A DNA stretch of 64,000 bases from Ensifer adhaerens. Its GTDB lineage: Bacteria > Pseudomonadota > Alphaproteobacteria > Rhizobiales > Rhizobiaceae. Shown here piece after piece: positions 19,078 through 35,708 of this stretch. Within the stretch, counting starts at the first letter, position 1. Each line of letters opens with the position of its first letter. The notes below the pieces were generated by a model that saw only the letters and a list, made by a program, of their open reading frames with translations, had not been told where the DNA came from and ran no database searches. The DNA lies in contig OCMG01000004.1 of assembly GCA_900215285.1 (NCBI GenBank), positions 744,001 to 808,000 of the forward strand, in the 5' to 3' direction. Made by a program: the position numbers and the translations under genes.

Positions 19078-20046
19078 TCATAGCCACTTTGCCATCTTGA
19101 ACCGGATAAAGAGGAAGAGGCAGAACATCAGCATGACACCGAGCACGACGAAGTAGCCGTAAGCCGTGTTCAGTTCCGGCATATTCTTGAAGTTCATGCC
19201 GTATATGCCTGCAATCGCTGTCGGCACGGCGAGGATCGCGGCCCATGCCGCGAGTTGGCGGGTGACGACCCCGATTCTTTGCGCTTCTAGAAGGCTGCTG
19301 AACTCGAAAACGGTGGATAGCACCTGCAGGAGGCCATCGACCATGGACTGGACACGATCAACATGGTCCGCAACGTCGTTGAAGTAGGGCCGCACCTCAG
19401 CGCTGATACAGGGAAAGTGTCCGCGCACGAGCTTGCGCACCAGTTCGGCCATCGCGCCAAGGGTGCGCTGGAAGCGCGTCAGCTCGCATCTCAGGCCGAA
19501 GATGCGAGCAACGTCCTCTCGCCCAAGGAAGTCGTCGAGCGACCGCCTCTCCATCGCAAGTACGTCATCCTCGATCATTTCGAAGATGGGCAGATACTGA
19601 TCCACGATCCGGTGAAGGATCGCGTGGAGGACGTAATCGACGCCCTTTCCGAACTGGGCGGGCGACCGCTCGAGTTGCTCTCGAAGGTTGCCCAATGCCC
19701 CAGCGTTGCCGTGACGAACAGTGATAAGATGGTTATGGCCAGTAAAGATCGCCGTCTTGCCGTAACGTATGCGGTCCCCGACCAGCTCAGCTGTCTGGGC
19801 GACGACGTAAAGCTCGCCGTTATAAACTTCGAGCTTCGGCGGGCATATCGGGTGCATCGCGTTGTCGATCGCTAAAGGATGCAGATTATAGGTCGCCTGA
19901 AGCGCCCTCAGTTCGTTGACCGAAGGCTCGCTGAGCCCAATCCAGCAAAAGCCCGAACGGTTCTTGTCGAGCTCGACGCGTTCGTCGATAGCAACTTCTC
20001 GGATACGCCGACCCTCGTTGTAGTAATATGCAGCGATGACACTCAT
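19078..20046 (-). CDS. corA: CorA-family divalent metal transporter
   Basis: A 322-residue CorA-type channel. It has a large N-terminal cytoplasmic alpha/beta and helical domain, then two C-terminal transmembrane helices with the selectivity motif YGMNF near residue 285. After it comes NMPELNTAYGY, the periplasmic loop. The final residues RFKMAKWL form the usual basic tail. It should mediate Mg2+ (or Co2+/Zn2+) flux. Its ATG overlaps the stop of the glutathione S-transferase gene (20043-20046), so expression is coupled to that detoxification gene. Confidence 0.9.
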   Translation of the reverse strand: MSVIAAYYYNEGRRIREVAIDERVELDKNRSGFCWIGLSEPSVNELRALQATYNLHPLAIDNAMHPICPPKLEVYNGELYVVAQTAELVGDRIRYGKTAIFTGHNHLITVRHGNAGALGNLREQLERSPAQFGKGVDYVLHAILHRIVDQYLPIFEMIEDDVLAMERRSLDDFLGREDVARIFGLRCELTRFQRTLGAMAELVRKLVRGHFPCISAEVRPYFNDVADHVDRVQSMVDGLLQVLSTVFEFSSLLEAQRIGVVTRQLAAWAAILAVPTAIAGIYGMNFKNMPELNTAYGYFVVLGVMLMFCLFLFIRFKMAKWL

Positions 20047-20747
20047 GCTGATCTCGCCGGAATGAGCAGCCCACGTTGGACTGCTGGGCGCGCAAGGCCG
20101 CGATCCAGCCACGCTCGGACATTCGAATGTTCGCTAAACCGCAGTAGGTCGCCGGCGTCGTAGGTGCCAACCAAGGCGTTGACCCAACCGAGGGTCGCAA
20201 TGTCAGCAATGGAGTAGTCGTCAACGATCCAGCTGCGCCCGTCCAACTGGCGATCCAAGACGCCTAGGAGACGTCTGGACTCGTCGGCGAACCGCTGCTG
20301 AGGCCGCTTATCCTCGTAGTCCTTGCCGCCCCAACGCAAGAAAAAGCCGAGTTGACCGAACATCGGGCCAATCGCCGACATCTGGAAGAATACCCAGCTT
20401 AGCGCCTCGTAGCGCTTGGCTGATGCTCTCGGGACGAGCTGGTCGGCCTTCTCCGCCAAATAAACGAGGATCGCACCGGATTCCCAAACGCCGAGCGGCT
20501 TACCGTCCGGGCCCACTGGGTCGATGATCGCTGGTATGCGGCCATTCGGGTTCAATGAAACGAAGGCCGGATCTTTGCTTTCGTTCTCAGAGATGTCGAT
20601 AAAGTGCGGCTCGTACGGCAGGCCGATCTCCTCGAGCATGATCGAGACCTTGACGCCGTTGGGCGTGGGCGCGGCGTAGAGCTGCAGGAGGTCGGGGTTG
20701 GATGCCGGCCAGCGTTGTGTGATCGGAAACGATGAAAGGTCTGGCAT
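20043..20747 (-). CDS. Glutathione S-transferase, Nu/YghU-YfcG-like
   Basis: A 234-residue GST. The N-terminal thioredoxin-like domain has TPNGVKVSIMLEEIGLPYE (glutathione site with the T-P-N motif of Nu-class enzymes, which carry disulfide-bond reductase activity) and NPNGRIPAI with the cis-Pro. ESGAILVYLAEK contacts the glutathione glutamyl group. The helical domain follows from residue ~95. Nu-class members reduce organic peroxides and mixed disulfides, in keeping with the cargo. It starts an operon with corA. Confidence 0.9.
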   Translation of the reverse strand: MPDLSSFPITQRWPASNPDLLQLYAAPTPNGVKVSIMLEEIGLPYEPHFIDISENESKDPAFVSLNPNGRIPAIIDPVGPDGKPLGVWESGAILVYLAEKADQLVPRASAKRYEALSWVFFQMSAIGPMFGQLGFFLRWGGKDYEDKRPQQRFADESRRLLGVLDRQLDGRSWIVDDYSIADIATLGWVNALVGTYDAGDLLRFSEHSNVRAWLDRGLARPAVQRGLLIPARSA

Positions 20748-20882
20748 GACGTGGCGATCCTAACAACTTGATGGCTGAGGAGCGGTATGACCGCTGGATT
20801 AGCTGGGTTTCGGACCCGCACCATCAGTGGATGCGGGACCGATGGTGCGACCCAGGGGGCTCAGCCGCAATTGTCGCTGCAG

Positions 20883-21422
20883 CTATTCCGCTGCCGCGCC
20901 GGCCTCAGCCTGGGTGTCGCCAGCGTCTTGACGCTTCGGGAGCACCCAGTTAGCGCGCGGGAAATGACAGGTGTATCCGCCCGGCCGCTTCTCCAGATAA
21001 TCCTGGTGCTCCGGCTCGGCTTCCCAGAAGTCACCCACGGGCTCGACTTCGGTGACGACCTTGCCGTCCCATAGTCCGGACGCGTCGACATCGGCGATCG
21101 TGTCCTCGGCGACGCGCTTCTGCTCCTCGTCGACGTAATAGATGCCTGACCGATAGGAGAGGCCGCGGTCGTTGCCTTGGCGGTTCTTTGTCGTCGGATC
21201 GTGGATCTGGAAGAAGTATTCCAGGATATTGCGGTAGCTCGTCACTGCCGGGTCGAAGGTAATCTCGATTCCCTCTGCATGTGTGCCATGGTTGCGGTAG
21301 GTGGCGTTCGGCACGTCGCCGCCGGTGTAGCCGACGCGGGTCGAGACGACACCGGGTTGCTTGCGGATCAAATCCTGCATTCCCCAGAAGCACCCGCCTG
21401 CGAGAACAGCGCGCTGATGCAT
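20883..21422 (-). CDS. msrA: Peptide-methionine (S)-S-oxide reductase MsrA
   Basis: A 179-residue canonical MsrA with active site GGCFWGM (Cys11), the TRVGYTGG segment near 29, and [12 protein letters not shown] giving the Glu and Asp environment. FFQIHDPTT near residue 70 and a C-terminal PGGYTCHF with a resolving Cys are also present. It repairs S-methionine sulfoxide in proteins with thioredoxin. It begins one base after the msrB stop codon, so msrB-msrA form a two-gene operon covering both sulfoxide epimers. This is the second of three MsrA copies in the window. Confidence 0.94.
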
Positions 21423-21423
21423 G

Positions 21424-21867
21424 TTAGGCCTCCTCTACCTGATCGAGATACTCTGCGTACCCTTCGGCTTCCATCTCATCGCGCGGGATGAAACGAAGCG
21501 AAGCCGAGTTGATGCAGTAGCGCAGGCCACCGCGGTCGGACGGTCCGTCTGGAAACACGTGTCCGAGATGGCTGTCGCCGTGCACGGACCGAACTTCCGT
21601 CCGGACCATTCCGTGTGAGCTGTCTCGAATTTCGTTTACGTGTGCGGGGACGATCGGCTTGGTGAAACTCGGCCAGCCTGTTCCCGACTCAAACTTGTCC
21701 GTCGACGCGAACAACGGCTCGCCGGACACGACGTCGACGTAGATGCCTGGCTCCTTGTTGTCGTTGTATTCACCGGTGAAGGGCCTCTCGGTTCCGTCCT
21801 GCTGGGTGACCCGGCGTTGTTCCGGGGTCAGACGCTCAATCGCTTCCTGCGACTTTTCAAACTTCAT
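21424..21867 (-). CDS. msrB: Peptide-methionine (R)-S-oxide reductase MsrB
   Basis: A 147-residue MsrB reducing the R-epimer of methionine sulfoxide. The catalytic Cys lies in [12 protein letters not shown] near residue 120, with the substrate motif [10 protein letters not shown] near 60 and the [10 protein letters not shown] loop near 98. The zinc-binding CxxC pairs of many MsrB proteins are absent ([11 protein letters not shown] has no Cys), placing it in the zinc-free class. ATG 21867 has a GGAGA site on the minus strand. The ATAGTTTC-type motif at 21982-21992 lies ~120 bases upstream, the same distance as its copy before dps. Confidence 0.94.
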
Positions 21868-22016: not shown

Positions 22017-22892
22017 TCAGCTCCAGTCGTAACGGGCTGCAAGCTGAGCGATTTTTCGTATCTCGACCGGTGCCGTAGATCCGGACACGGTGGCAATCAC
22101 GATCTCACGCTCCAACGCGAAGCCCTCGATCGGCCTGGTGACTAGGCCGTGGGTGGTGGCCGAGCGTTCGGGCAAAATGCATACCCCCCGACCTTCGGCG
22201 ACCACGCGCTGCACCCAGTCGTCTCGATCTGAGCGAAAGCGAGGGCGCATCCGCACCTCTCGACGCGCGAAGTGCTCGAAGATTTGGTCGCGGCACTCGC
22301 ATTTCAGTCGATCTACGAACGGGAAAGAGAGCAGGTCTTCGCCACGAACGACTTCGGACGCCGCTAAGGGGTGATCTGCAGCGCAGCCGAGCACGAAACG
22401 CTCCTGGAAGAGAGGACGCACATCAAGTTTACGATCCGGCCTGGATTCGCGAGGCAGGATGCACGCGTGATATTTGCCTGAGAGCACCTCCGACGTGTCC
22501 TCGCTCGACTGGAGCGAGTGCAGTTTGATCTCAATGGACGGCACCTCTTCCAGGGCGCTCTCGAAAAAGGCTGTGAAGGCCCTCGGGCCGACGCTGGAGG
22601 CGACAGCAACATCGAGAACGCGATGCCGCCCCATTGCCCAGTTTTCCGAGTGATGTCTTACGCTCTTCATCGCGACCAGCATCCGGCGGAATTCCAACTC
22701 GACGTCCTGACCCAGGCTCGTCAGCCGGCTGTTCTTCCCGTCACGATAGATGAGCGGTCCACCGAGTTCCTCCTCCAGGCGGCGGATCGCTCGGGTCAGG
22801 CTTGGTTGTGAGACACCACTGAGCCGAGCAGCCGAAGTGAAATTCAGCGTCTCGGCCAAGTTGATGAAATAGCTGACCTGATTGAGTTCCAT
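22017..22892 (-). CDS. LysR-type transcriptional regulator 1
   Basis: A 291-residue LysR protein. The winged helix-turn-helix occupies residues 1-60 (MELNQVSYFINLAETLNFTSAARLSGVSQPSLTRAIRRLEEELG), followed by a periplasmic-binding-like effector domain. The effector domain contains cysteines (FVLGCAADHP, RLKCECRDQ) that could sense oxidation, but no OxyR-type pair is evident. ATG 22892 is the only start that keeps the usual short N-terminus. It is divergent from the osmC fusion gene, and both TATGCG operator copies lie in the intergenic space, so it may be co-regulated by them. Confidence 0.9.
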   Translation of the reverse strand: MELNQVSYFINLAETLNFTSAARLSGVSQPSLTRAIRRLEEELGGPLIYRDGKNSRLTSLGQDVELEFRRMLVAMKSVRHHSENWAMGRHRVLDVAVASSVGPRAFTAFFESALEEVPSIEIKLHSLQSSEDTSEVLSGKYHACILPRESRPDRKLDVRPLFQERFVLGCAADHPLAASEVVRGEDLLSFPFVDRLKCECRDQIFEHFARREVRMRPRFRSDRDDWVQRVVAEGRGVCILPERSATTHGLVTRPIEGFALEREIVIATVSGSTAPVEIRKIAQLAARYDWS

Positions 22893-22956: not shown

Positions 22957-22975
22957 TATGCGTGACGCATATAAT
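22957..22975 (+). promoter_or_regulatory. Palindromic operator with overlapping -10 (distal osmC promoter)
   Basis: TATGCGTGACGCATA (22957-22971) is a near-perfect dyad that runs directly into TATAAT (22970-22975), a consensus -10 on the plus strand. A second copy follows exactly 40 bases later. A repressor bound here would occlude RNA polymerase at the osmC-msrA-ZIP promoter. The same arrangement occurs upstream of both marR genes and gap. Confidence 0.65.
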
Positions 22976-22996
22976 AGTGGTTTAGGGGCTTGTCTA

Positions 22997-23015
22997 TATG
23001 CGCCACGCATATAAA
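22997..23015 (+). promoter_or_regulatory. Palindromic operator with overlapping -10 (proximal osmC promoter)
   Basis: TATGCGCCACGCATA (22997-23011) overlaps TATAAA (23010-23015). It is spaced 40 bases (about four helical turns) from the upstream copy, allowing two repressor dimers on one DNA face. It lies ~100 bases before the osmC fusion start at 23114. Confidence 0.62.
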
Positions 23016-23113
23016 AAGAATGCCTTGGCGGTTATCTCGGGTCGATGGTGCTCCGGGTCAGGTTCGAAAGGTGTCGGTGCACCTGCCAAGCCGCCGTTGG
23101 AGGCTCGAAGCAT

Positions 23114-24340
23114 ATGGCAGGAACACGGTTCAAGTTTGCCGGGGGAGCGGCGGCTGAGCTAACCGGGCACCTGGAGGCGCCGGAAGGCACTCCTCGCGGC
23201 TGGGCAATTTTCGCCCATTGTTTCACTTGCGGGAAGGACAGCCGCGCCGCCGTCCACATCGCACGCGCGCTCTCGCGGGCTGGTATCGGCGTCTTGCGGT
23301 TCGACTTCGCCGGCACAGGACTCACGAGTGCCGCAGAAGAAGAGGTAAGCTTCGCTTCTGACGTCGACGATCTGAGGGCAGCCGCGAAAGCCATGGCGGC
23401 TGCCGGTATGCCACCCGCCCTCCTTGTCGGGCACAGCCTGGGTGGCACGGCAGCGATCGTAGCCGCCGCCGAGCTGCCGGATGTCGCAGCGGTGGTGACG
23501 ATCGGTGCGCCGGCCGACCTTCACCATATCTTGCGCGTTTTCCGGCCTGGCGACCTCGACGCGATAGCGAGCGAGGGCGAGGCCTCTGTGGAGATCGCTG
23601 GCAGGCCGTTCCTCATCCGCCGCACCTTCCTGGAAACGGTAGAGCGAGCCGACATCGAGAAATCCATCGCCGCGCTTCGACGTCCGGTGCTGGTCATGCA
23701 TTCGCCAGTGGACCAAGTCGTGGGCATCGAGCATGCCTCGCGCATCTTCGTCGCGTCACGACATCCTAAGAGCTTTGTCTCCCTCGACACGGCGGATCAC
23801 CTTCTCACCGACGTCGAAGATGCGAACTACGCCTCAGCTATGGTCGCCGCGTGGGCCAGCCGCTTTCTTCCGCCGCTTGCGGCGGATCTTCCGCAGGTCG
23901 AGGCGGCGAAAGGTGTCGTTGCGTCGGAGACGCTCGCGGGGAAGTTCCAGCTCACGGTGCGCAGTGGCGAGCACACTCTGTTCGCCGACGAGCCGGAATC
24001 GGTCGGAGGTCTTGGGAGCGGCTTGTCTCCCTACGAACTGGTGTCTGCCGGGCTAGCTGCCTGCACGGTGATGACGATGCGCCTTTACGCCAACCGCAAG
24101 GGCTTCCCGCTCGAAAGAGCGACGACGACCGTGCGGCACGAGAAGGTGGCGGACATGATGCCGCCTGACCGCTTCACACGCACCATCGTTCTTGATGGGC
24201 CGCTCAGCGATGATCAACGCGCGCGCATTCTCGAGATCGCGGATCGGTGTCCCGTCGACCTGACGCTCGTCCGGGGTTCTGATGTGCGGACCGAGCTTTC
24301 GAGCGGCGGTCAGCCTGCAGGTGCGGCGTCGTCGAGCTGA
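23114..24340 (+). CDS. Alpha/beta hydrolase-OsmC fusion protein
   Basis: A 408-residue two-domain protein. Residues 1-255 are an alpha/beta hydrolase with nucleophile elbow GHSLGGTAA (Ser ~108), an acid in HSPVDQVVG and His in TADHLLTD. Residues ~270-400 are an OsmC/Ohr-type domain with [21 protein letters not shown] (first redox Cys) and [12 protein letters not shown] (second redox Cys). OsmC domains reduce organic hydroperoxides. Such fusions are known in proteobacteria; the hydrolase may release an oxidised acyl or ester substrate for the peroxidase. Two TATGCG operators precede it, and msrA and a ZIP transporter follow on the same strand. Confidence 0.92.
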
Positions 24341-24368
24341 TTTGGTATACAGAGCTAAGGGTAAACGG

Positions 24369-24905
24369 ATGGAGAGACTGCCCGCTACAGACCAGGCGCC
24401 GGCGCGAACCGAGCGAGCGATACTCGCGGGTGGGTGTTTCTGGGGTCTCGAAGATTTGCTGCGCCGCGCGAAGGGCGTCGTGTCCACGCGTGTTGGCTAT
24501 AGCGGCGGCGAGATGCCAGATCCGACTTATTCGCGACATTATGGCCATGCGGAAGCCGTAGAGGTAACTTTCGATCCGTCGATCCTGACTTACAGATCGC
24601 TTCTTGAACTGTTCTTCCAGATTCACGACCCAACAACGTATGAACAACAGGGCAGCGATGTAGGTCCGAGCTATCGATCGGCCATTTTTTATACTTCCGC
24701 AGCGCAGATGGACATCGCGTTAGCGACGATCGCCGAGATCGAAGCGTCGGGTCGCTGGCCTGGGCCAGTCGTGTCCGAGATCAACCCGGAAGAACCTTTC
24801 TGGGAGGCTGAGCCCGAGCATCAGAAATATCTCATGCGTGAACCCGGTGGCTATAGCTGCCACTTCGCGCGACCGACCTGGCGATTGGACCGAGCGAACC
24901 GATGA
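24369..24905 (+). CDS. msrA: Peptide-methionine (S)-S-oxide reductase MsrA (third copy)
   Basis: A 178-residue MsrA with active site GGCFWGL (Cys23), [21 protein letters not shown] and FFQIHDPTT motifs and a C-terminal GGYSCHF resolving Cys. It is close to the msrA at 20883 but clearly a separate lineage (different termini and loop). It starts 28 bases after the osmC fusion stop and therefore belongs to the operon controlled by the double TATGCG operator. Confidence 0.93.
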
Positions 24906-24981
24906 GCGAGCTTCGACTATCATCGACAATACTGCTGCAAGGGTGCTCGCGCTTTGTCGTGCTGGCAGCCGGGTCACCGTC

Positions 24982-25743
24982 ATGATGCCGGAATACGTGA
25001 TCGCCGGCTTGTGGGGCCTTTTGTCGGGGAGTGGACTTCTGGTGGGGGCGGTGCTGGCGGACGTGCTTTTCGGGCGGCTTACTCACCGCATGATCTCCGC
25101 AGTTATGGGCTTTGGTGGCGGCGTGTTGATTGCCGTTGTCGCTACCGAACTCATCGGCGATCGCGTTTCGGCCGGGATGGGCCCATTGGCGATCTTCGCG
25201 CTGCTCGCCGGAGCTGCGATCTTCAGCGGCACAAACTGGTTTCTGTCTCGCCAAGGCGCGAAGCATCGAAAGCGATGCGGTGAATGCACGGAGCAGGCCA
25301 CTGAACAGGAGCACCGTGGTAGTGGTGCCGCAATTGCGCTCGGCAGCGTTCTCGACGGAATTCCAGAGGCCCTCGTGATCGGGATGTCGGTGGCTGGTGG
25401 CGGCAGAATCAGCCTGGCCGTCGTGGCAGGCTTCTTTCTCGCTAATGTGCCGCAGGGCCTATCGAGCACTTCAGGGATGAAGGTTGCGGGCCGACCTCGA
25501 AGCTATATCTACGCGGTCTGGGTCGGCATTCCCCTACTCGTTTGCGTTGCCGCCGGTGTGGGAAATCTGCTCCTCGGTTCGGCATCAACTCAGGCGCCAG
25601 CCATCCTTTCTTTCGCGGCCGGCGCCGTCATCGCGATGCTGGCAGAAGCTATGATACCCGAAGCTTTCGAAAAGGCGCCGCCGTTCATAGGGCTCATCAC
25701 GGTCGTGGGATTTCTGGCGGCATATCTCATTGCTCAACACTGA
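24982..25743 (+). CDS. ZIP-family metal transporter
   Basis: A 253-residue membrane protein with about eight hydrophobic segments. The ZIP signature helix appears as LGSVLDGIPEALVIG near residue 120 (Asp and Glu where many ZIPs carry H-P-EG), and a second metal helix as IAMLAEAMIPEAFE near 220. A loop near residue 100 has CGECTEQ that could bind metal or sense redox state. Substrate is probably Zn2+, Mn2+ or Fe2+. ATG 24982 follows the msrA stop by 76 bases; longer in-frame starts overlap msrA. It is the last gene of the osmC operon and converges on marR1. Confidence 0.82.
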   Translation: MMPEYVIAGLWGLLSGSGLLVGAVLADVLFGRLTHRMISAVMGFGGGVLIAVVATELIGDRVSAGMGPLAIFALLAGAAIFSGTNWFLSRQGAKHRKRCGECTEQATEQEHRGSGAAIALGSVLDGIPEALVIGMSVAGGGRISLAVVAGFFLANVPQGLSSTSGMKVAGRPRSYIYAVWVGIPLLVCVAAGVGNLLLGSASTQAPAILSFAAGAVIAMLAEAMIPEAFEKAPPFIGLITVVGFLAAYLIAQH

Positions 25744-25763
25744 GTGATGCGATTGCGATAGTC

Positions 25764-26303
25764 CTACGCCTCGCCGCTGTTTTCGCGATCTACGCCACGC
25801 TCATGCAACTCGGCATCAATCGGGCAGTTCGTGCAACCCTCATAGCAACACAAGCGGCAGATACGGTAGGAATGCTCAAGATTTTCCAGGCGATGCCGTA
25901 AGACGCGTTCCGCGATGTCGCAGAGAACTTTCAGTTCGTCTCGGCTTAGGATGGATAATCCCTCTGCGATCACCTCGTCGCGCGAGGAAAGGACTTCGTC
26001 GCTCGCTACCTTGCCCGCCGCAGTGAGATAGAGGGACCGGGTGCGACCATCCGTGAAATGCTCACGGCGTTCGACCAATCCCTCAGCCGCTAACCGATCC
26101 ACCAAACGGACAGTCGCTGCATGGGAGAGCCCGACGCCGATGGAGAGCATGCGAATCGAGAGCCCAGGCATGTGCGCGATCAACGCCAGGGCCGATGCTG
26201 CGGGTCCAGCTTCCGGCGCCCGCGATGAACTAGCGCGAACAATGTCGTCGCTGATCATGAGTGCGAACGCCCCAAAGATATTTCGATCTCGAGGTTCATC
26301 CAT
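25764..26303 (-). CDS. MarR-family regulator with C-terminal cysteine cluster
   Basis: A 179-residue MarR-type winged-helix repressor (LSIRMLSIGVGLSHAATVRLVDRL near residue 60-85, wing REHFTDGRTRSLYLT). The C-terminus adds five closely spaced cysteines, C149-x2-C152-C153-x3-C157-x2-C160-P, then DAELHERG. This could bind a metal or iron-sulfur centre or form disulfides, making it a candidate redox sensor. A TATGCG-type palindrome lies ~14 bases upstream of ATG 26303, so autoregulation is expected. It is paralogous to the MarR at 29514. Confidence 0.88.
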   Translation of the reverse strand: MDEPRDRNIFGAFALMISDDIVRASSSRAPEAGPAASALALIAHMPGLSIRMLSIGVGLSHAATVRLVDRLAAEGLVERREHFTDGRTRSLYLTAAGKVASDEVLSSRDEVIAEGLSILSRDELKVLCDIAERVLRHRLENLEHSYRICRLCCYEGCTNCPIDAELHERGVDRENSGEA

Positions 26304-26311
26304 TGCGACAT

Positions 26312-26331
26312 CTATATGTGCGCGAAGCATA
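26312..26331 (-). promoter_or_regulatory. Operator and -10 of marR1
   Basis: Read on the minus strand: TATGCTTCGCGCACATATAG, aligning with the gap site TATGCGTGACGCACATATAA. The dyad is less perfect than elsewhere. The -10 (TATAGA) lies only ~12 bases before ATG 26303, so the transcript would have little or no leader. Confidence 0.5.
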
Positions 26332-26831
26332 GACAGCAAGCCATACCCGAGTGGTTCTGGTCGGCAAGCGTGCGGAGAAAAAGCCCGACTCACAAAGGCT
26401 TACGACGCCCCGCCGACGACACGGGAGATTGAAACTCCGCTATTTAGATCATCGCTGCGCACGGAATGCCGATACCTAGCGGCTATAGATCGGGGTCGCT
26501 TGCCGTGGTTTCGGCTGCCGTGAGGCCGAATCACATCTTTGCAGCGCCAGCTTCGCGTTGTGGCCCACAGTTATCGGCAGGGCCCGGAAGCTCGCTTTCT
26601 GCGTCTCACCTCAACCGACACACCCTGGTCAGCCACGACCGTGCTTTAGCCGAAGCCAGCCTGTCCTCTGCTCGCGGATGGATATCAAACCCCTGTCCAT
26701 CTCGAGGACGCGTGGGCCTTGAACACGTTTCATGCAGCCCCCGGGAGAACGGCTGCGTGTTTGGACGGCGCATGCTGGATCATCCGTGCCGACATTGCCA
26801 CATTGACCCCGAGCACCCACCCAGATAGATC

Positions 26832-26852
26832 TATGCGTGACGCACATATAAT
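26832..26852 (+). promoter_or_regulatory. Palindromic operator and -10 of gap
   Basis: TATGCGTGACGCACA (26832-26846) runs directly into a consensus TATAAT (26847-26852). The right dyad arm has one change from the perfect palindrome. The gap start codon is 101 bases downstream, leaving a ~95-base leader. The arrangement matches that upstream of the osmC fusion. Confidence 0.62.
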
Positions 26853-26952
26853 GTGTCGGCACGCACATCCCGCCAGAGCCGACTTCCTGCGCCATGCAGC
26901 ATTGAGCGAATGGCGGATGCTTTAGTCAGTAGGGCAAACCAAGGAGACAGGC

Positions 26953-27960
26953 ATGACGGTTAAGGTCGCAATCAACGGTTTCGGTCGGATCGGGCGACTA
27001 GCCTTACGGTCGATCGTCGAACTACGTCGAGAGGACGTCGAAGTGGTTGCGATCAACGACCTCGGGCCGGTCGCTACCTTGGCGCACCTCCTGAGGTACG
27101 ACTCGGTTCATGGTCCCTTTCGCGGATCGATCGACCTCGGCGAAGACTGGATCGACGTCGGGTCCGGTAAAATCAGGGTGTCGTCGGAACGCGATCCAGC
27201 AAACCTGCCCCATGATGAGCTTGGTGTTGACGTAGCGCTCGAATGCACGGGCTTCTTCACATCCAGGGAGAAGGCCGAGTCGCACATTCGTGCGGGAGCA
27301 AAACGCGTGCTCGTCTCCGCGCCGAGCGATGGGGCAGACAAGACGATCGTCTTCAAGGTCAATCACGACACGCTGACCGCTGACGATGTCGTCGTATCAA
27401 ATGGCTCATGCACGACCAATGTCCTCGCGCCTGTCGCGAAGGTACTGAACGACCTCTGCGGCATAGAGCGAGGCTATATGACCACGGTTCACGCTTATAC
27501 CGGTGACCAGCCGACGCAGGATACCGTCCATAAGGATCTCTACCGCGCCCGCGCAGCGGCACTCTCAATGATTCCGACTTCCACCGGGGCTGCGAACGCG
27601 ATTGGCCGCGTGCTGCCGGAACTAAAAGGTAAGCTTCATGGCTCGTCCATCCGCGTCCCAACGCCGAATGTGTCGGTCATAGATTTGGCTGTTTCGACGT
27701 TGCGTGAGGTTTCGATAAACGAGGTGAACGACGCCATCCGTCAGACTGCCGCCGGTGCAATGAGTGGGGTGCTCGCCTTCACGACAGAGCCCTTGGTGTC
27801 GGTCGATCTGAACCATCGGACCGAATCCTCAATCGTCGCACTTCCCCAGACAGATGTTGTCGATGGAAGGATGGTTCGCGTGCTTGCTTGGTACGACAAT
27901 GAATGGAGCTTTGCGACGCGTATGGCGGATACCGCGGTCGCAATGGCGAAGCTCATTTAG
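26953..27960 (+). CDS. gap: Glyceraldehyde-3-phosphate dehydrogenase lacking the second loop cysteine
   Basis: A 335-residue type I GAPDH oxidising glyceraldehyde 3-phosphate with NAD+ and phosphate. The NAD-binding INGFGRIGR is at residues ~7-15, the catalytic Cys153 is in NGSCTTNVLAP, and the substrate loop is STGAANAIGRV. The usual motif is ASCTTNC; here the position four residues after the catalytic Cys is Val and the preceding residue is Gly. That second Cys takes part in disulfide formation during oxidation in many GAPDHs, so this isoform may be more oxidant-tolerant. A strong AAGGAGA site precedes ATG 26953, and the promoter carries the TATGCG operator. Confidence 0.94.
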   Translation: MTVKVAINGFGRIGRLALRSIVELRREDVEVVAINDLGPVATLAHLLRYDSVHGPFRGSIDLGEDWIDVGSGKIRVSSERDPANLPHDELGVDVALECTGFFTSREKAESHIRAGAKRVLVSAPSDGADKTIVFKVNHDTLTADDVVVSNGSCTTNVLAPVAKVLNDLCGIERGYMTTVHAYTGDQPTQDTVHKDLYRARAAALSMIPTSTGAANAIGRVLPELKGKLHGSSIRVPTPNVSVIDLAVSTLREVSINEVNDAIRQTAAGAMSGVLAFTTEPLVSVDLNHRTESSIVALPQTDVVDGRMVRVLAWYDNEWSFATRMADTAVAMAKLI

Positions 27961-28025
27961 CCGATCGAGTGCCCGCAAAGTCGTCACTTGGCGAAAAGGT
28001 GGGTTTTCCAAAAAAGGAAGCATCG

Positions 28026-28326
28026 ATGAGCATGAATGGACCATTGGCGCGCAGCGAGAGCCCTGATCCAGTGGCCGCGATCGCACGTCGCCAAGATCGC
28101 TGAGTTGGACGAGGAGACGTTAGCTCGGTTCGAGGCCGGCGGTAGCGTGCTTGCAGCTTGGGAACTGACGCGGTTGCGTGACGCGCTCGAACGGGGCGGC
28201 GCCGTCTTCATCGATGAGGATCATCGCGCGGGATCGGGCGTGAGGCTTAAGTTCAACGCCAAGGACGTGCGTGCCATTAATCGGATGGAGGGCGAAGGCG
28301 GGCGGGTAGGCACCGACGATGTCTGA
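28026..28326 (+). pseudogene. XRE-like small DNA-binding protein, frameshifted near its start
   Basis: The frame from ATG 28036 gives 96 residues resembling small Cro/XRE-like regulators: RAARALIQWPRSHVAKIAELDEETLARFEAG, then LRDALERGGAVFIDED and a terminal RLKFNAKDVRAINR. The best ribosome-binding site (AAGGAAG, 28014-28020) instead fits ATG 28026 in another frame, encoding MSMNGPLA, a plausible authentic N-terminus, before running out of frame. A one-base indel near 28046-28050 would restore a normal protein. It may still be made from ATG 28036. It follows gap by ~65 bases. Confidence 0.55.
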
Positions 28327-28518
28327 AACCTCAGATTCTCGCGCCGGAGCTGGGGTATGCGGCGACAGACACTCATTCCTGCCGTGACCACGCCTATCAT
28401 GCACACAACCGATGCTCGACGCACTATCCTTCGAGACGGCAATGAGGGGGATGGGGCAACGCAGGCGTACGACCTGATAAGTCGATATTCACGGGGCTCA
28501 TGAACGGCCCAGGACCAT

Positions 28519-29487
28519 CTACCCTCTCCCGTGGCCTGATGGACCTTTCTTGAAAAGCCTTTCACGCGCTGCAAATCCGAAAACGATCGTCGTCGTCATC
28601 ACAAGGTAGGCAACTATGCCGCCCGGAGAGAGTGTAGGCACTGCGGCGAGGATCAAAGCGTCGTTGCCACCGGGTATGAGGCCGATACCTATTCCCATCA
28701 ACGCTCCGCCGACAATCGACCGCAGAATGCCGGCAGCCGTCAGCCGTTGAAAACGCAAACGTCCCTGACGCACGGATGCTGTGATTGCTCCCGTAACAGA
28801 GGCAATGACCGCAACGAGTGCGACCTCGCCTGTTGGCGTCATTCGAAGAGGAAGGCCGCGTTGGATCAGGTCAGCGAACGTCCATGCCGGTGACAGGGCG
28901 TAGAGAAGTCCACCAGTGATACCGAGGCCGATCATTGAGGCGCCAAACGCCCAACTCGGTCTTCTTCGCGATACGCCCTTCGTCGATACGAACATCACCG
29001 CTAGCGCTAGTACAACCGCAAGGGCGAGAACCGTAGCGGCCCCAGAGATGCTTGGGCTCGCGATAACACTTGTCCATGTCACGAGAGAGCCGGGCCGACC
29101 ATGATCGGCAATCAAGATCCCGACTGCTAGTCCCACAGGAAGAGCCAGCAGTCGCATTTCGCCATCGCCTAACCGTGCCAACGATCCAAGCAGACAGGTG
29201 TCATTGATGAGCGCCCCAAAGCCGAAGGCGATGGCGCCGATTAGGAGAAAGGCGTTGACGTTCGTCGAGGGTGCCAGGGTCGCGTTCAGCGACCCAGACC
29301 AAGCAAGCGGAATAGCAACAAGGCCCGCCGCTGCAGACGCCGCAAGAAATCCGACGAACATTCTTGGTCGGCGTCGTTTCTGCAACTCGTGAGCAGCCAC
29401 GACCAGGCATGTCCCACCTCGGTTTGCGGAATACCCAAACCAGAATGCCAGCATGCATATGAGAAGGTCGAACGCGATGGATTCCAA
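28519..29487 (-). CDS. YeeE/YedE-family sulfur-compound transporter
   Basis: A 322-residue integral membrane protein with about nine hydrophobic helices. Two Cys-containing motifs typical of YeeE/YedE lie in pore-lining positions: RGGTCLVVA near residue 27 and NDTCLLGSLARL near residue 97. Characterised YeeE proteins import thiosulfate through such cysteines. It could supply reduced sulfur for cysteine and thiol synthesis or handle another sulfur species. It starts 27 bases after the marR2 stop on the same strand, implying a marR2-yeeE operon under the TATGCG operator. Confidence 0.85.
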   Translation of the reverse strand: MESIAFDLLICMLAFWFGYSANRGGTCLVVAAHELQKRRRPRMFVGFLAASAAAGLVAIPLAWSGSLNATLAPSTNVNAFLLIGAIAFGFGALINDTCLLGSLARLGDGEMRLLALPVGLAVGILIADHGRPGSLVTWTSVIASPSISGAATVLALAVVLALAVMFVSTKGVSRRRPSWAFGASMIGLGITGGLLYALSPAWTFADLIQRGLPLRMTPTGEVALVAVIASVTGAITASVRQGRLRFQRLTAAGILRSIVGGALMGIGIGLIPGGNDALILAAVPTLSPGGIVAYLVMTTTIVFGFAARERLFKKGPSGHGRG

Positions 29488-29513
29488 AGTATCAAGCCTG
29501 ATTTAATTTCTGG

Positions 29514-30044
29514 TCAGTCGTTCTTCGAAGGACGCCGGGGTGGCGAGCGGGCTGGCGTTGCGCTTTCAGTAGGTCGTCGCCTCGGGTCGCCGCCCAGATG
29601 CCGGAGGCTTGCGAGCTCACTTTTGTTCAAGCCGCTTTCGAGAAGAAGCCGCTCGGACAACGTGCCTAGGTCGTTCAGGTCGATGGGCGATAGGGGCGAG
29701 ACCCACGCCGCGATCACCTGCTCGTGCGCTCTGAGCAAGGCTTTAGTCATCTGCTCACCGGAATTGGTGAGGTGGATGAAACGCGCCCGTTTGTCGACGG
29801 TGTGTCGCCGCCGTTCGACCAGATGACCGGTTTCAAGCCTGTCGATCAATCGCACCGTCCCAGCATGGGAAAGACGAAGCCGGCTAGCTAGGACGCTGAT
29901 AGGGACCCCAGGCTCAACACTAAGAAAGATCATCAGCGCAGCCGCTGGTCCGCTCGGCGAAAGCGAGGCTGAGGCACTCGCGATGCTGTCAGCCACCGCG
30001 AGCGCAAGTGCACCAAAATGATACTTGGCTGCCTCCGGCTCCAT
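29514..30044 (-). CDS. MarR-family regulator 2
   Basis: A 176-residue winged-helix repressor paralogous to the MarR at 25764, with matching recognition region (LASRLRLSHAGTVRLIDRLE) and wing (RRHTVDKRARFIHLT). It lacks the cysteine cluster and instead ends in a basic, Pro- and Arg-rich tail. ATG 30044 lies only 12 bases from the TATGCGTGACGCATA palindrome (30057-30071). The near-identical promoter geometry of both marR genes suggests they bind the same operator and cross-regulate. Confidence 0.9.
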   Translation of the reverse strand: MEPEAAKYHFGALALAVADSIASASASLSPSGPAAALMIFLSVEPGVPISVLASRLRLSHAGTVRLIDRLETGHLVERRRHTVDKRARFIHLTNSGEQMTKALLRAHEQVIAAWVSPLSPIDLNDLGTLSERLLLESGLNKSELASLRHLGGDPRRRPTESATPARSPPRRPSKND

Positions 30045-30052
30045 CCATCAAC

Positions 30053-30071
30053 GATATATGCGTGACGCATA
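30053..30071 (-). promoter_or_regulatory. Operator and -10 of marR2-yeeE
   Basis: TATGCGTGACGCATA at 30057-30071. On the minus strand it continues into TATATC, a likely -10, about 10 bases before ATG 30044, so the mRNA would be leaderless or nearly so. A looser copy (TATGACTCCCGCATA) lies at 30093-30107, 36 bases away, on the LysR2 side. Confidence 0.6.
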
Positions 30072-30255
30072 GACATCAAGTGGCTGGAGATGTATGACTC
30101 CCGCATACATTTCTGGGATTCGGAGATGGTCATGCTCATCGAAGGACTCGGCTCGGATTCCTCGTCTGAGATCGAAAGAGATGCGCCGTCCGCTGGCGGA
30201 TCAGAATTTCGCGCGCTGCTCGTGCGCTCAAATGGCGGCAGTCACGGAGGTCGTC

Positions 30256-31158
30256 ATGCCCGATCTGACGCTTGATCTGCGATACCTGAAATACGCGATC
30301 CAGGTCGCCGAGGCAGGTAGCTTTCGCCGGGCGGCCGACCGCATTGCGATCTCCCAATCTACCGTCAGCCGTCGCGTGCAGATGCTAGAGCGTCAGCTTG
30401 GCGTTTCGCTGTTCGAGCGCACAAGAACAGGTGCCGCGCTAACGCCCGAAGGAGCACGCTTTCTTCAGCACGCGGCGGCAGGAGCGCGATACCTTCGCGA
30501 GGCTGCGACAGAGATCCGGTCTACCCGAAACCTCAAGACCGGGCTTATCAGATTTGGGATGCTCGAAGCGTTTCCGGCGGGCCCAATCATCGACCTTCTC
30601 GCGGACTTTCGACATCAATATCCGACTATCGAGGTGAAGCTCGAGGAAGGCACGTCAGAAGAGAACACATCGCGGGTGCGGCGTGGATTACTGGACGCCG
30701 CAATTTGCCTTCGCACGAACAGCAGCCGCCAGTTTCAAATTCGGCGCTTCTGCGATCCCACTTTGTTTGTGGCATTGTCAAAGCGTCACCCGTTGGCGTT
30801 GCAAATGCAATTGGGTTGGGAGGACATCTGCGACGAGGTCTTTCTTGTTCGTTCCGACGGTGCCGGACGTGAACTCTCCGACTTGCTCAAGCGCATGGTA
30901 GGAGCCGTGGAAGGAGAGGTTCAACTATCCATTCAACAGGTCAGCCGGGAGACACTCCTCACCATGGTCGAACAGGGCTTCGGTTTAACCATCACGACGT
31001 TGGTTAGCCGCACTGATATCGCGCTGGTTCCGCTTTCATCGACCCGAGCGCCCACGGCTGCTACGATTTCATGTTGCGACAACGACAATCCCGCCCTGCC
31101 ACTGCTGCTGAAATGTCTCGACACCCTCTCAGGGCGGAAGGGGAGAAGTGTGGGCTAA
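30256..31158 (+). CDS. LysR-type transcriptional regulator 2
   Basis: A 300-residue LysR protein with N-terminal winged helix (LRYLKYAIQVAEAGSFRRAADRIAISQSTVSRRVQMLERQLG) and effector-binding domain. ATG 30256 follows a GGAGG site; upstream in-frame starts give a non-conserved extension. It is divergent from marR2. Its last bases overlap the 3' end of the convergent DUF2274 gene (31155), marking the exact border between cargo and conjugation genes. Effector unknown. Confidence 0.88.
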   Translation: MPDLTLDLRYLKYAIQVAEAGSFRRAADRIAISQSTVSRRVQMLERQLGVSLFERTRTGAALTPEGARFLQHAAAGARYLREAATEIRSTRNLKTGLIRFGMLEAFPAGPIIDLLADFRHQYPTIEVKLEEGTSEENTSRVRRGLLDAAICLRTNSSRQFQIRRFCDPTLFVALSKRHPLALQMQLGWEDICDEVFLVRSDGAGRELSDLLKRMVGAVEGEVQLSIQQVSRETLLTMVEQGFGLTITTLVSRTDIALVPLSSTRAPTAATISCCDNDNPALPLLLKCLDTLSGRKGRSVG

Positions 31159-31394
31159 TCGTCGGTTTCTTGCGTCGTAGCTCGCCTAGCTTTTGCAAAA
31201 CCGCGATCGGTTGCGATGAACCTCTCCAGCATCGGCACGATCAATCGTATAGGGTCAGCAATCACCTCGCCCTGTTCCCGGCCTAGCGCTTCGGCATATG
31301 CCCGCAAATCCCGGTGGAGAGCTGCGGGCATTTCTACCGTGACCTTGATCGGCTTGTCGTCGACGATCGGACCCAACTTGAGCTTTGCCATCAT
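31155..31394 (-). CDS. DUF2274 protein, end of trb operon
   Basis: A 79-residue protein with a ribbon-helix-helix-like pattern (IKVTVEMPAALHRDLRAYAEALGRE) and charged C-terminus, matching DUF2274 proteins that routinely follow trbI in Rhizobiales ICEs. It may be a small DNA-binding regulator of transfer. Its start overlaps the trbI stop, so it is translated with the trb operon. Confidence 0.78.
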   Translation of the reverse strand: MMAKLKLGPIVDDKPIKVTVEMPAALHRDLRAYAEALGREQGEVIADPIRLIVPMLERFIATDRGFAKARRATTQETDD

Positions 31395-32614
31395 GATCCT
31401 CCGTAGGGTTCGAGCACCAGATCCCGTGTAACGATCACACGAACAGGGAAGCCAGGGCGGATCGTCAGCGTCGGCGCAATGTTGAGCTGTCGCCGCACAA
31501 TCTGCTGTCCTGCATCATTGATGGTGTCCTGGCCGCCATTGCGGATCGCCTGGATGAGGCGATCATCATTGTCCACGGCGAGTTCGGCGCCGACGCTGAG
31601 CAGTGTGGAAAGTCCGGCCGCCTTGGCGAGATCCCACCAGTGGTAATCGACGCCATCCTGCAGGCCGGCGTAACCTTCGGCGTCGGCACCTGGCTGGCGC
31701 TCGAGCACGATCGACCGGCCGTTCGGAAAGATCAGCCGGTTCCAGACCAGCAGCACGCGGCTTTGCCCGAACTGCACGTTGTTGTCGTATTGACCGACGA
31801 CACGTGTGCCCTGTGGCACGAGCAGGATGCGGCCTGTCGGACTGTCGTAGATGTTTTCCGTGACCTGGGCGGTGATCTGTCCCGGAAGGTCAGATCGGAT
31901 GCCGGTTATCAGCGCCGCCGAGATGACTGCGCCGGCCTGAAGGATGTTCGGCGACGCTGGAGCAACGACGCGATCGGGGGACACCGTCCGTCGATCGGCC
32001 GCTGCGTTGAGGAAGGCGTTCTGTCGATCCTGCGCGGAGGGCGTGGCCGGCGGCGGTGTGAGGCCAAGGCTCGCCAAATCAGGCGCGGGCGGGAGTGCTG
32101 GGGCAGCTCCTGCCGCAGCGGGCGCACCCCGGCTCTCCGATCCGGAGAAAAGGCGGCTGGTCCGCGCGGTCTCGATCTCCTGAAGGCGGCGCTGCTCTTC
32201 CGGGCTGATGCCGGGATTGGGCGCGGCAATACCGGGCGTTGGCACGGGATGTCCGCGATCCTGGGTGCTGAGGATTGGCCGCCCGAGGTCACCGGGAAGA
32301 GGCGGACCGAGCTGGGGTACGCCGCTGTAATCTCGCGGCAGGCCGGCCAGGCCGTCAGCGGTCGAGCGATTCTCGGTCGAATAGAGTTCGTCGTTGGGCC
32401 GGCCGGCGTCGCGGGTCTGGAGCGCGTAAATCAACGCACCGCCGAGCCCGACGCTGGCGACAAGACCGAGGCCGGCGAGAACCTTCCGCGATAGTCGGGT
32501 GACGCGGGGCGGTTCGGCGCGTAGACGCATCGGCGCTGGCCCGACCGGCTCGCCGGTCAAGGGCTGCGCATCGTCGTCTGGCACTTCCTCATTCCGGGGG
32601 GTATTCTCGCTCAC
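31391..32614 (-). CDS. trbI: TrbI, conjugative pilus channel protein (VirB10-like)
   Basis: A 407-residue VirB10 homologue that spans inner and outer membranes and opens the type IV secretion channel. It has a cytoplasmic N-terminus, one transmembrane helix at ~45-65 (LAGLGLVASVGLGGALIYAL), a Pro-rich periplasmic spacer, and a C-terminal beta-barrel domain with GRSIVLERQPGADAEGYAGL. Start is GTG 32614, with GGGAGG upstream and a 4-base overlap with trbG; no ATG fits. Confidence 0.93.
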   Translation of the reverse strand: MSENTPRNEEVPDDDAQPLTGEPVGPAPMRLRAEPPRVTRLSRKVLAGLGLVASVGLGGALIYALQTRDAGRPNDELYSTENRSTADGLAGLPRDYSGVPQLGPPLPGDLGRPILSTQDRGHPVPTPGIAAPNPGISPEEQRRLQEIETARTSRLFSGSESRGAPAAAGAAPALPPAPDLASLGLTPPPATPSAQDRQNAFLNAAADRRTVSPDRVVAPASPNILQAGAVISAALITGIRSDLPGQITAQVTENIYDSPTGRILLVPQGTRVVGQYDNNVQFGQSRVLLVWNRLIFPNGRSIVLERQPGADAEGYAGLQDGVDYHWWDLAKAAGLSTLLSVGAELAVDNDDRLIQAIRNGGQDTINDAGQQIVRRQLNIAPTLTIRPGFPVRVIVTRDLVLEPYGGS

Positions 32615-33660
32615 GAGGTTGGCCTCCCGTCGGTACGGACGATCCTGACGCGCTTCTGCTCGCGACCAGAGCCGAAACGCAGTTCGGCGGCGGCGAACAG
32701 CCGATCGACGATCATGTGGTGACCGCGAACGCGGTAATTCACCAGCTCGGAGGTGTTGCCCTCGGGTCCGACGACGAAGAGCGGCGGCATCTCCCCCTGG
32801 CCGATGCCGCGCGGAAACTCGATGAAGACCTGGCGGCCATCGTCGAATGCGCGGAGCGGTCGCCAAGGGGCGCGATCACCCTCGATCGCATAGCGGAAGT
32901 TGACGTTGGCGAGATCGACACCGCTGGCCACCGGCTGGGCGGCCTGCGCCTCGGCGTTTTGGCGGCGCAGCGCGATGAGTTGGTCCTGCGGATACTGCCA
33001 CGAGACCGATGCCATATAAGTCCGCTCGGTCGAGCGCAGCTCCATGTGATAGGTGCGCATGTTGGTGTTGATGACGAGGTTGGTCATCAGATCGGCACGG
33101 GTGGGCTTCACGAGGATGTGGATCTGGCGCGTCGCACCCGATCCGCTCTCAGTGTCGCCGATGATCCAGCGGACCGTGTCCCCGGCCGCCACCGGACCGG
33201 CGCCGACGAGCTGCTCGCCGGGCTGAAGCGCGATGTCGGTGATCTGACCGACAGCGGTGTAGACCTGATAGAGCGCCCCTTGCGTCCAGGGATAGACCTG
33301 CATGGAGTTGATGAAGCCGTCGCGCACCGGCTGGACGCGGGCCGCCTCATTGGCCTGATTGACGCGCGCCGTCGGGTTGGCCGGCTCGGGCGCGCGTCGC
33401 GTCTCCGGCACACGCTGCAACTGGCCGGGTAGCGGCAACGGCCGCGGTAGCTCAACCACGGTGACGGGCGCAGGCGGATCGACCGTCTGCACGGCGGGAG
33501 CCGCGTTGTCGTAGGAGATCTCGGGCGGTGGGTTCGTGGTGGCGCAGCCGGCGAGCGCGGTTGTCGCCAGCAGGACGATTGGGATTGCGGCTCTGCGGAG
33601 AGCCGGGAATACAAGTGTGTGTGAAGCCGGATTTCCAGCTTTACGGAAAGACGGCTTCAT
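32611..33660 (-). CDS. trbG: TrbG, outer-membrane core protein (VirB9-like)
   Basis: A 349-residue lipoprotein (lipobox LAGC near residue 38) homologous to VirB9/TrbG. It has a Pro-rich N-terminal region, then the VirB9 beta domains (VYPWTQGALYQVY, VNFRYAIEGDRAPWRPLRAFDDGRQVFIEFP). With TrbI it forms the outer-membrane complex. It overlaps trbF by 4 bases. Confidence 0.93.
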   Translation of the reverse strand: MKPSFRKAGNPASHTLVFPALRRAAIPIVLLATTALAGCATTNPPPEISYDNAAPAVQTVDPPAPVTVVELPRPLPLPGQLQRVPETRRAPEPANPTARVNQANEAARVQPVRDGFINSMQVYPWTQGALYQVYTAVGQITDIALQPGEQLVGAGPVAAGDTVRWIIGDTESGSGATRQIHILVKPTRADLMTNLVINTNMRTYHMELRSTERTYMASVSWQYPQDQLIALRRQNAEAQAAQPVASGVDLANVNFRYAIEGDRAPWRPLRAFDDGRQVFIEFPRGIGQGEMPPLFVVGPEGNTSELVNYRVRGHHMIVDRLFAAAELRFGSGREQKRVRIVRTDGRPTS

Positions 33661-34340
33661 TGCCCAAGCTCCCGTGACCAGTTGATGGCGTTGACGTAGA
33701 TGCCGAGCGGGTTGGCCCTGAGCCGGTCGGCATTGCGGGGGATCTGCACGACGATCGTCAGGATCGCCGTCCAGCGGGTAGTCTCGGCGAGTTGGCCGTT
33801 CTCGTAGCGGCGCTCGACCCAGGCGACGCGGAAGCTGTCCGGGGAGGCGCGGATGACGCTAGAGACGTCGATGGCGACTTGCTGGCGGCCGACCCGTGTG
33901 AACGGGTCGTTGGAGCGGGCATAGTCGTTTAGCGCCATGGCGCCGCGATCGGTCGTGAAGTCGTAGGCGCGAAGCCAGTTCTGGCGAACGATGATCGCGT
34001 CGGCAGGAATCGAGCGGACTTGCTCGATGAAGCGCGCCAGGTGGAAGGCGATCTGCGGATCGGTCGGACGATAGTCGGCCTCGGCTGGCGCGACTGCCTG
34101 CGCCTGACCGACGCGATCGACCTGCACGACCCAGGGCACGATCGTTCCGCGGGCCGACTGCACGACGAGCGCGGTAGCGAACCCGGCCGAGAGGATCAGG
34201 GAGCCGAAGGCCATCAGCCGCCAGTTCTTCGCCTGGACGCGCGAGGCGCCGATGCGCTCATCCCAGACCTGCGCAGCGCGCTGATACGGCGTTTCGGGCT
34301 CGACGGCTTTGCCGTAGTGGGTAGAGGGTCGTTTGAACAT
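33657..34340 (-). CDS. trbF: TrbF, inner-membrane assembly protein (VirB8-like)
   Basis: A 227-residue VirB8-type protein with a short cytoplasmic N-terminus, one transmembrane helix at ~44-64 and a periplasmic NTF2-like domain ending IYVNAINWSRELGQ. It nucleates secretion-channel assembly. Overlaps both neighbours. Confidence 0.92.
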   Translation of the reverse strand: MFKRPSTHYGKAVEPETPYQRAAQVWDERIGASRVQAKNWRLMAFGSLILSAGFATALVVQSARGTIVPWVVQVDRVGQAQAVAPAEADYRPTDPQIAFHLARFIEQVRSIPADAIIVRQNWLRAYDFTTDRGAMALNDYARSNDPFTRVGRQQVAIDVSSVIRASPDSFRVAWVERRYENGQLAETTRWTAILTIVVQIPRNADRLRANPLGIYVNAINWSRELGQ

Positions 34341-35704: not shown

Positions 35705-35708
35705 GATA

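Follow-up and report, generated by a model that had tools for sequence, protein, structure and literature searches.

MarR-family repressors such as MexR, MarR, Rv0880 and YusO have a winged-helix fold and a dyad at their own promoter. Peroxide sensors of the OhrR type carry a reactive cysteine near the N terminus. In the chlorine defense of E. coli, the RcrR-RcrB and RclR-RclC systems are controlled by regulators of the TetR and AraC type, unlike MarR. The thiol-based redox MarRs HypS, HypR, CosR and ForJ tie the family to oxidants; HypS is described as leaving DNA upon oxidation of its own cysteines (PMC12421854). Here we analyzed a 64-kb window of Ensifer adhaerens DNA (the window being this whole stretch), in which a palindromic element recurs at several promoters of a mobile stress-gene cargo. 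We put the probability that the palindrome is the operator of MarR repressors encoded by the same island at roughly 0.77, and refer to the sites as operators in this sense.

MarR1, one of the two MarR proteins of the island, resembles the repressors above in its winged-helix fold (residues 1–142) and in the dyad at its own promoter, and the 5-N5-5 geometry of the operator resembles that of the MexR site. Compared with MarR-family repressors generally, MarR1 adds a C-terminal Cys4 motif from profile position 149, past the PDB matches (best 60 of 108), and in the island several paralogs carried by a single mobile cargo have an operator in common. As with HypS, HypR, CosR and ForJ, a tie to oxidants is proposed here; unlike in those proteins, there is no cysteine before residue 128 in MarR1 and five are in its tail, while MarR2 has none. 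Like the two E. coli systems, some relatives of the island have a DUF417 gene, which there lies behind the operator; DUF417 is the family of RcrB and RclC (PMC9600549). The original prediction, made on this DNA from its sequence, did not recognize the regulon as described, and no published account of it was found in the full text of open-access PMC. On sequence grounds it is a real regulon, related in kind to known MarR systems.

Operator sites in the window

The putative operators of the window are the following (positions in base pairs, bp).

22957–22971, no strand: operator 1, divergent LysR1/osmC region, TATGCGTGACGCATA
22997–23011, no strand: operator 2, divergent LysR1/osmC region, TATGCGCCACGCATA
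26317–26331, minus strand: marR1 operator (coding strand: TATGCTTCGCGCACA), with an imperfect half-site
26832–26846, plus strand: gap operator, with TATAAT directly 3' (26847–26852)
30057–30071, minus strand: marR2-yeeE operator, TATGCGTCACGCATA on the coding strand, with TTGATG upstream (30079–30074)
30093–30107, minus strand: imperfect auxiliary site, TATGCGGGAGTCATA, 36 bp 5' of the marR2 operator

The core of the operator is a MarR-type dyad, TATGC-N5-GCATA. All five palindromes of the original prediction (22957, 22997, 26317, 26832 and 30057) lie where they had been placed. Their description as near-identical holds for four, which have no mismatch (22957, 30057) or one (22997, 26832) to TATGCGTNACGCATA, and fails for the marR1 site at 26317 (TGTGCGCGAAGCATA), which has three. 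The two marR sites had been placed 12–14 bases before the start codons, and this was borne out, with 13 bases at marR1 and 12 at marR2. The double site 22957/22997 lies about 69 and 109 bp from the start of LysR1. The auxiliary site is retained in three related loci (L011, L012 and L016), where its inner bases differ.

The genome (5,190,151 bases in 6 contigs) was scanned for the motif, with the backwards motif as the control. When up to one mismatch to TATGCGTNACGCATA was allowed, the only matches were four cargo sites (22957, 22997, 26832 and 30057), spanning 7.1 kb; frequent occurrences outside the cargo promoters, a possibility raised with the prediction, did not appear at this stringency. 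The exact core TATGCN5GCATA occurs at four places genome-wide, three of them in the cargo and one outside it (C4:1667244). Within the window there were 11 matches with up to three mismatches to TATGCGTGACGCATA, compared with 1.01 expected from shuffles (maximum 4), both strands of the palindrome being counted.

Conservation of the operator in related loci

Named genome contigs were scanned with MarR as the bait, and the best 80 of 131 confirmed stretches gave 78 loci, which together with the window and three plasmids make up 82 loci (1.47 Mb in total). Since many of these are near-copies, per-gene counts were taken on distinct upstream sequences (genes of at least 45% identity, 300 bp upstream, distinct 160-bp upstream stretches). 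The exact core occurred 217 times in the 82 loci, while 59 palindromes with permuted arms occurred 1.1 times on average (highest 34). The control with 34 matches, TTCGA-N5-TCGAA, was rejected as a second element: its matches lie mostly within the corA and hyp1 reading frames, with a few elsewhere, and were taken to reflect coding conservation.

The exact core was found upstream of LysR1 (42/44), osmC (28/33), gap (14/16), rpiA (11/12), marR3 (11/11) and marR2 (10/10); its presence upstream of LysR2 (8/8) is the marR2 site viewed from the opposite side. Upstream of marR1 the core was exact in 4 of 53 sequences and had at most one mismatch in 49 of 53. DUF6314 had the exact core in one of 13 cases, and it was found in none of the upstream sequences of MFS (0/17), hyp1 (0/34), hyp2 (0/38), corA (0/35), GST (0/33), msrA1 (0/40), msrB (0/43), msrA2 (0/21), ZIP (0/13), DUF2274 (0/11), RidA (0/10) and ADH (0/6). 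With one mismatch allowed, it stood upstream of msrB in 4 of 43 and of msrA2 in 2 of 21.

Among the loci listed, the inner five bases are variable, with the half-sites mostly preserved. Imperfection is a consistent trait of the marR1 site, whose last half-site reads GCACA in 28 of 37 distinct sites; this may weaken autorepression. Paired sites are 40 bp apart in 30 of the 37 distinct exact pairs of the 82 loci, the remainder being at 35, 36, 38 and 41 bp; a distance of 45 bp was seen in L091, L093 and L094, and one of 43 bp in L105. Strict helical phasing of the paired sites is not supported by this spread (35–45 bp).

The three plasmids, those of Sphingomonas paucimobilis and Rhizobium indicum and Aeromonas caviae pFBAOT6, were read individually. 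All have sites before osmC and marR1, with one to four mismatches to the full consensus: R. indicum and pFBAOT6 each have four at marR1, and one osmC site of pFBAOT6 has three. Additional sites lie before gap in S. paucimobilis and before marR2 in pFBAOT6.

Two further observations were made on the relatives' loci. A GATAGGTC-like block recurs directly before the gap operator, is read as GACCTATC on the rpiA side, and has the form AGATAGATC in the window; it is possibly a second control element. In L066 (3151–3165), an operator-like site, TATGCATGACGCATA, lies 13 bp before a reading frame of 287 amino acids.

Promoter architecture

Each site had been predicted to overlap or abut the presumed -10 hexamer, and by inspection this is the case for the five window sites. 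On the osmC strand, TATAAT (22970–22975) overlaps the end of operator 1, and operator 2 has TTGTCT directly 5' (22990–22995) and TA at its end. The marR1 operator lies between TTGCTG (26339–26334) and TATAGA (26316–26311).

Promoter spacing was counted over distinct sites in 200-bp upstream regions. The elements at marR1 run TTGnnn, a gap of 2 bp, operator, TAnnnn; TTG stands exactly at -8 in 31 of 37 sites, and 36 of 37 have TA at +1. Of the 17-bp spacer the operator thus takes up the final 15 bp, and filling of the spacer between -35 and -10 suggests repression. At marR2, TTG at -8 and TA at +1 are both found in 7 of 11 sites, the other four being auxiliary sites that end in TCATA. The osmC sites have TTG at -7 in 19/44 and TA at +1 in 42/44, and TA at +1 was seen in 8/9 at marR3 and DUF417. 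Because the -10 element is 7 nucleotides from the marR1 start codon, the marR1 message is probably leaderless.

MarR1, MarR2 and the Cys4 lineage

Two MarR genes are present in the cargo.

25764–26303, minus strand: MarR1, 179 amino acids (Pfam MarR_2/MarR), winged helix and C-terminal CRLCCYEGCTNC
29514–30044, minus strand: MarR2, 176 amino acids (Pfam MarR_2/MarR), cysteine-free, with a similar recognition helix

The two proteins share 35% identity, have recognition helices that are alike (LSHAATVRLVDRL and LSHAGTVRLIDRL), and both score above the Pfam thresholds of MarR_2 and MarR. In its AlphaFold model (mean predicted local distance difference test score 88.5, and 85 for residues 151–160), MarR1 has the MarR fold; its nearest solved structures are ordinary MarR proteins, MexR, MarR, Rv0880 and YusO among them, and the alignments mostly cover residues 1–142. 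Matches to PDB sequences (best 60 of 108) end at profile position 146 or before, and the cysteine tail starts at 149. MarR1 has cysteines at positions 128, 149, 152, 153, 157 and 160, five of the six in the tail, and MarR2 has zero. The two are therefore not equivalent, one carrying a C-terminal Cys4 motif and the other no cysteine. A sensor of the OhrR type was rejected on cysteine position, the first cysteine of MarR1 being residue 128.

None of the NCBIfam MarR equivalogs (SlyA, MprA, OhrR, BilQ and others) was reached, the best scores being 36.8 and 34.6 bits against cut-offs of at least 120, and five MarR relatives were below every NCBIfam cut-off listed. Since no NCBIfam model was above its cut-off among the proteins tried, and no PDB match (best 60 of 108) reached the tail, the Cys4-tailed MarR lineage offers a way into what may be an uncharacterized type of sensor. 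With its winged-helix domain and a palindromic dyad, conserved in sequence, at its own promoter, the system is probably an autoregulated regulon of the MarR family.

A tree was computed for a wider set of 67 MarR representatives at 85% identity, and the tail was scored by a regular expression. The tail C-x2-C-x3-7-C-x2-4-C is present in 57 of the 67 and marks a wide MarR lineage to which MarR1 and relatives L090–L157 belong. The MarR2 group (5 rows) is without it and forms one clade (support 100/100), which sits with MarR1 and its near kin in one group (17 rows, 99/98); the motif is also missing in five rows elsewhere in the tree. What this group lost is the motif and not all cysteines, as the pFBAOT6 protein keeps a CxxC pair. 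MarR3 is on another branch, and L012 is among the loci with marR1, marR2 and marR3 together; at least two operator-sharing MarR lineages have thus met in one island.

Association between the operator and MarR genes

The 75 bp upstream of MarR genes were searched for 141 of 142 proteins (at least 120 amino acids), represented by 54 sequences at 90% identity. A core site with at most one mismatch was present in 39 of the 54 (shuffles: mean 0.66, maximum 3) and the exact core in 20 (mean 0.05, maximum 1); this count missed the marR1 sites of L066 and L051, which have two mismatches or shifted half-sites, and the MarR start codons of relatives were set by rule, some probably being misplaced.

Because the loci had been fetched by MarR, a genome search was run with the double site only. 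In the order it was found in 4 of 297 genomes, and each of the four belongs to the 45 in which a MarR relative reaches E ≤ 1e-20; in the class it was found in 6 of 385, five of them among the 15 with such a relative. The backwards-control double site was found in 0 genomes of either set. The window's own genome is included in both sets, and loci were fetched for part of the matches listed. A related MarR is mostly within 3 kb of the double site (4/4 in the order, 5/6 in the class). The class miss, G279, is counted here; its double site is part of a series of four cores (at 1501, 1545, 1589 and 1645 in L162), and the genome has no MarR relative at E ≤ 1e-20. In G877 the double site lies between relatives of LysR1 and osmC, with marR about 1.5 kb off, and in G834, G862, G091, G143, G148 and G227 it stands directly before marR.

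Some distant relatives have sister dyads in the same place: TGTGC-N5-GCACA in L096–L099, L133 and L131 (one base off), and TATGA-N5-TCATA, with the same geometry, in L090 and L107. Many distant MarR relatives have no recognizable dyad upstream. The idea that the half-site is specified by the first residues of the recognition helix is tentative, as helices with LTH accompany TATGA (L090, L107), TGTG-type (L095, L106) and TATGC-like (L135) dyads as well as none of these (L151–L157).

The idea of a dedicated MarR operator was upheld in that one operator is common to several promoters of the mobile cargo, with MarR as its likely binder. It needs correction in that the operator is not unique to the cargo: TATGC-N5-GCATA stands before marR relatives in L083, where no other cargo gene was detected in 14.7 kb, and in L091, L093 and L094 (about 3 kb seen), and in L075 and L077–L079 the operator precedes a marR paired with DUF417. 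What the sequences show is the operator and where it lies, together with its conservation and its association with this MarR lineage.

Proposed mechanism and alternative explanations

We infer MarR binding, repression, operon structure, an oxidant signal and Cys4 as its sensor in the following form. A MarR dimer would bind the half-sites TATGC-N5-GCATA, overlapping or abutting the -10 element; at marR1, marR2 and the osmC-proximal site the operator lies between -35-like and -10-like elements. Bound MarR would deny RNA polymerase access to marR1, marR2-yeeE, gap and the LysR1/osmC region, and the repressors would also repress their own genes. MarR1 would be released under stress, the likeliest signal being an oxidant (hypochlorous acid, for instance) that does damage to methionine and thiols, and this would turn on MsrA and perhaps MsrB for protein repair, along with OsmC, the transporters and GAPDH. 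The link to chlorine stress is drawn from the gene content and from DUF417 in some relatives. With a defined operator and likely regulators, the control of the stress cargo becomes directly testable. It is also conceivable, if doubtful, that the island is a mobile and self-contained oxidant regulon in which one operator serves MarR paralogs of unlike sensing power, the Cys4-tailed MarR1 (and MarR3 in relatives) being oxidant sensors. MarR2, in whose lineage the Cys4 motif was lost and the recognition helix retained, would then act as a competitor blind to oxidants, fixing the threshold and turning the system off.

Several results weigh against control by MarR repressors. The named loci were collected with MarR as bait, 15 of the 54 MarR representatives have no core site, and in the wider set 30 of the 67 carry no dyad of any of four types. 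When rows lacking Cys4 are scored as other, the combined label of TATGC and Cys4 takes 9 changes on the tree; it is clustered without forming one clade. The exact core is upstream of DUF417 in only 9/19, of DUF417b in 1/4 and of yeeE in 3/22. The -35 part of the promoter arrangement does not extend to gap, rpiA, marR3, DUF417 and LysR1, which are without TTG at -8, and TA at +1 is found in only 8/16 gap, 2/12 rpiA and 35/70 LysR1 sites. That an oxidant is the inducer is a guess based on the genes present. Lastly, with up to two mismatches the genome contains seven sites (three outside the cargo) and seven for the backwards control, so that the strict motif alone is informative and a looser motif says nothing by itself. 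The core with up to one mismatch occurs at 65 places compared with 43 for the control; as this is not far above the control and the marR1 site is three mismatches off, the marR1 site is supported by conservation and not by the genome scan.

Of the alternatives, the one that survives best keeps MarR as the binder and has it act in activation, or in response to another signal (a metal, a sulfur compound or an electrophile), instead of through relief by an oxidant. The ZIP-like, CorA-like and YeeE-like transporters of the cargo are in line with such a signal, and a metal could be bound by the Cys4 motif. We nevertheless consider this unlikely, because the marR1 operator is inside the -35/-10 spacer, a usual place for repression, and two MsrA genes, one MsrB gene and the OsmC and GST genes point to oxidants.

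It is much less probable still that the LysR regulators (LysR1 and LysR2) bind the sites in place of MarR. The double site does lie between LysR1 and osmC, and stays there where osmC is undetected (L022, L058). However, no LysR gene is beside marR1 or gap in the window, exact cores occur without a detected LysR1 or LysR2 in L055, L057, L072, L073, L075, L077 and L083 (these loci being pieces of genomes), and distant marR genes bear the dyad at their own promoter. LysR boxes have a symmetric T-N11-A arrangement; the operator has A and T at positions 2 and 14, and was rejected as a LysR box. That the palindromes are chance occurrences or a short interspersed repeat with no regulatory meaning, as the looser counts (65 against 43, 7 against 7) might allow, is rejected as next to impossible, being contradicted by selective placement, conserved spacing, kept half-sites with varied inner bases and co-occurrence with MarR.

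Cargo genes and mobility

The regulon is probably wider than first proposed. Other genes of the cargo in the window include the following.

19078–21867, minus strand (the LysR1 strand): msrB, msrA, GST and corA (Pfam), none with an exact core of its own upstream
22017–22892, minus strand: LysR1, divergent from osmC (Pfam HTH_1, LysR_substrate)
23114–24340, plus strand: alpha/beta hydrolase-OsmC fusion (Pfam Hydrolase_4, OsmC)
24369–24905, plus strand: MsrA, second copy (Pfam PMSR)
24982–25743, plus strand: ZIP-like transporter, no Pfam match; the S. paucimobilis relative is annotated as a ZIP family zinc transporter
26953–27960, plus strand: glyceraldehyde-3-phosphate dehydrogenase, type I (gap), NCBIfam TIGR01534 above cut-off
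28519–29487, minus strand: YeeE/YedE-like sulfur transporter (Pfam Sulf_transp), probably in one unit with marR2
30256–31158, plus strand: LysR2, divergent from marR2 (Pfam), with the marR2 operator 185 bp upstream

Since the double site is flanked by gene sets that diverge from it, LysR1-msrB-msrA-GST-corA may belong to the regulon. In relatives, rpiA, an RclC-family DUF417 gene and a third marR are additional genes linked to the operator; the window itself yielded no DUF417 gene. A reading frame of 96 amino acids, with no Pfam match, lies between gap and yeeE (28036–28326). In pFBAOT6 an alcohol dehydrogenase gene (L003 8933–9958) replaces the ZIP-like gene 3' of msrA, and by annotation the same is true of other listed plasmids.

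A DNA search found DNA like part of the region in 161 plasmid records, none of which covers 80% of it; 118 of the records are typed as conjugative, and 129 are from Citrobacter, Klebsiella or Enterobacter. In the window, conjugation genes follow directly after the cargo (31391–35899: TrbI-like, CagX/TrbG-like, VirB8 and TrbL/VirB6), an arrangement that fits a conjugative element. TrbI and TrbG genes likewise adjoin the cargo in pFBAOT6.

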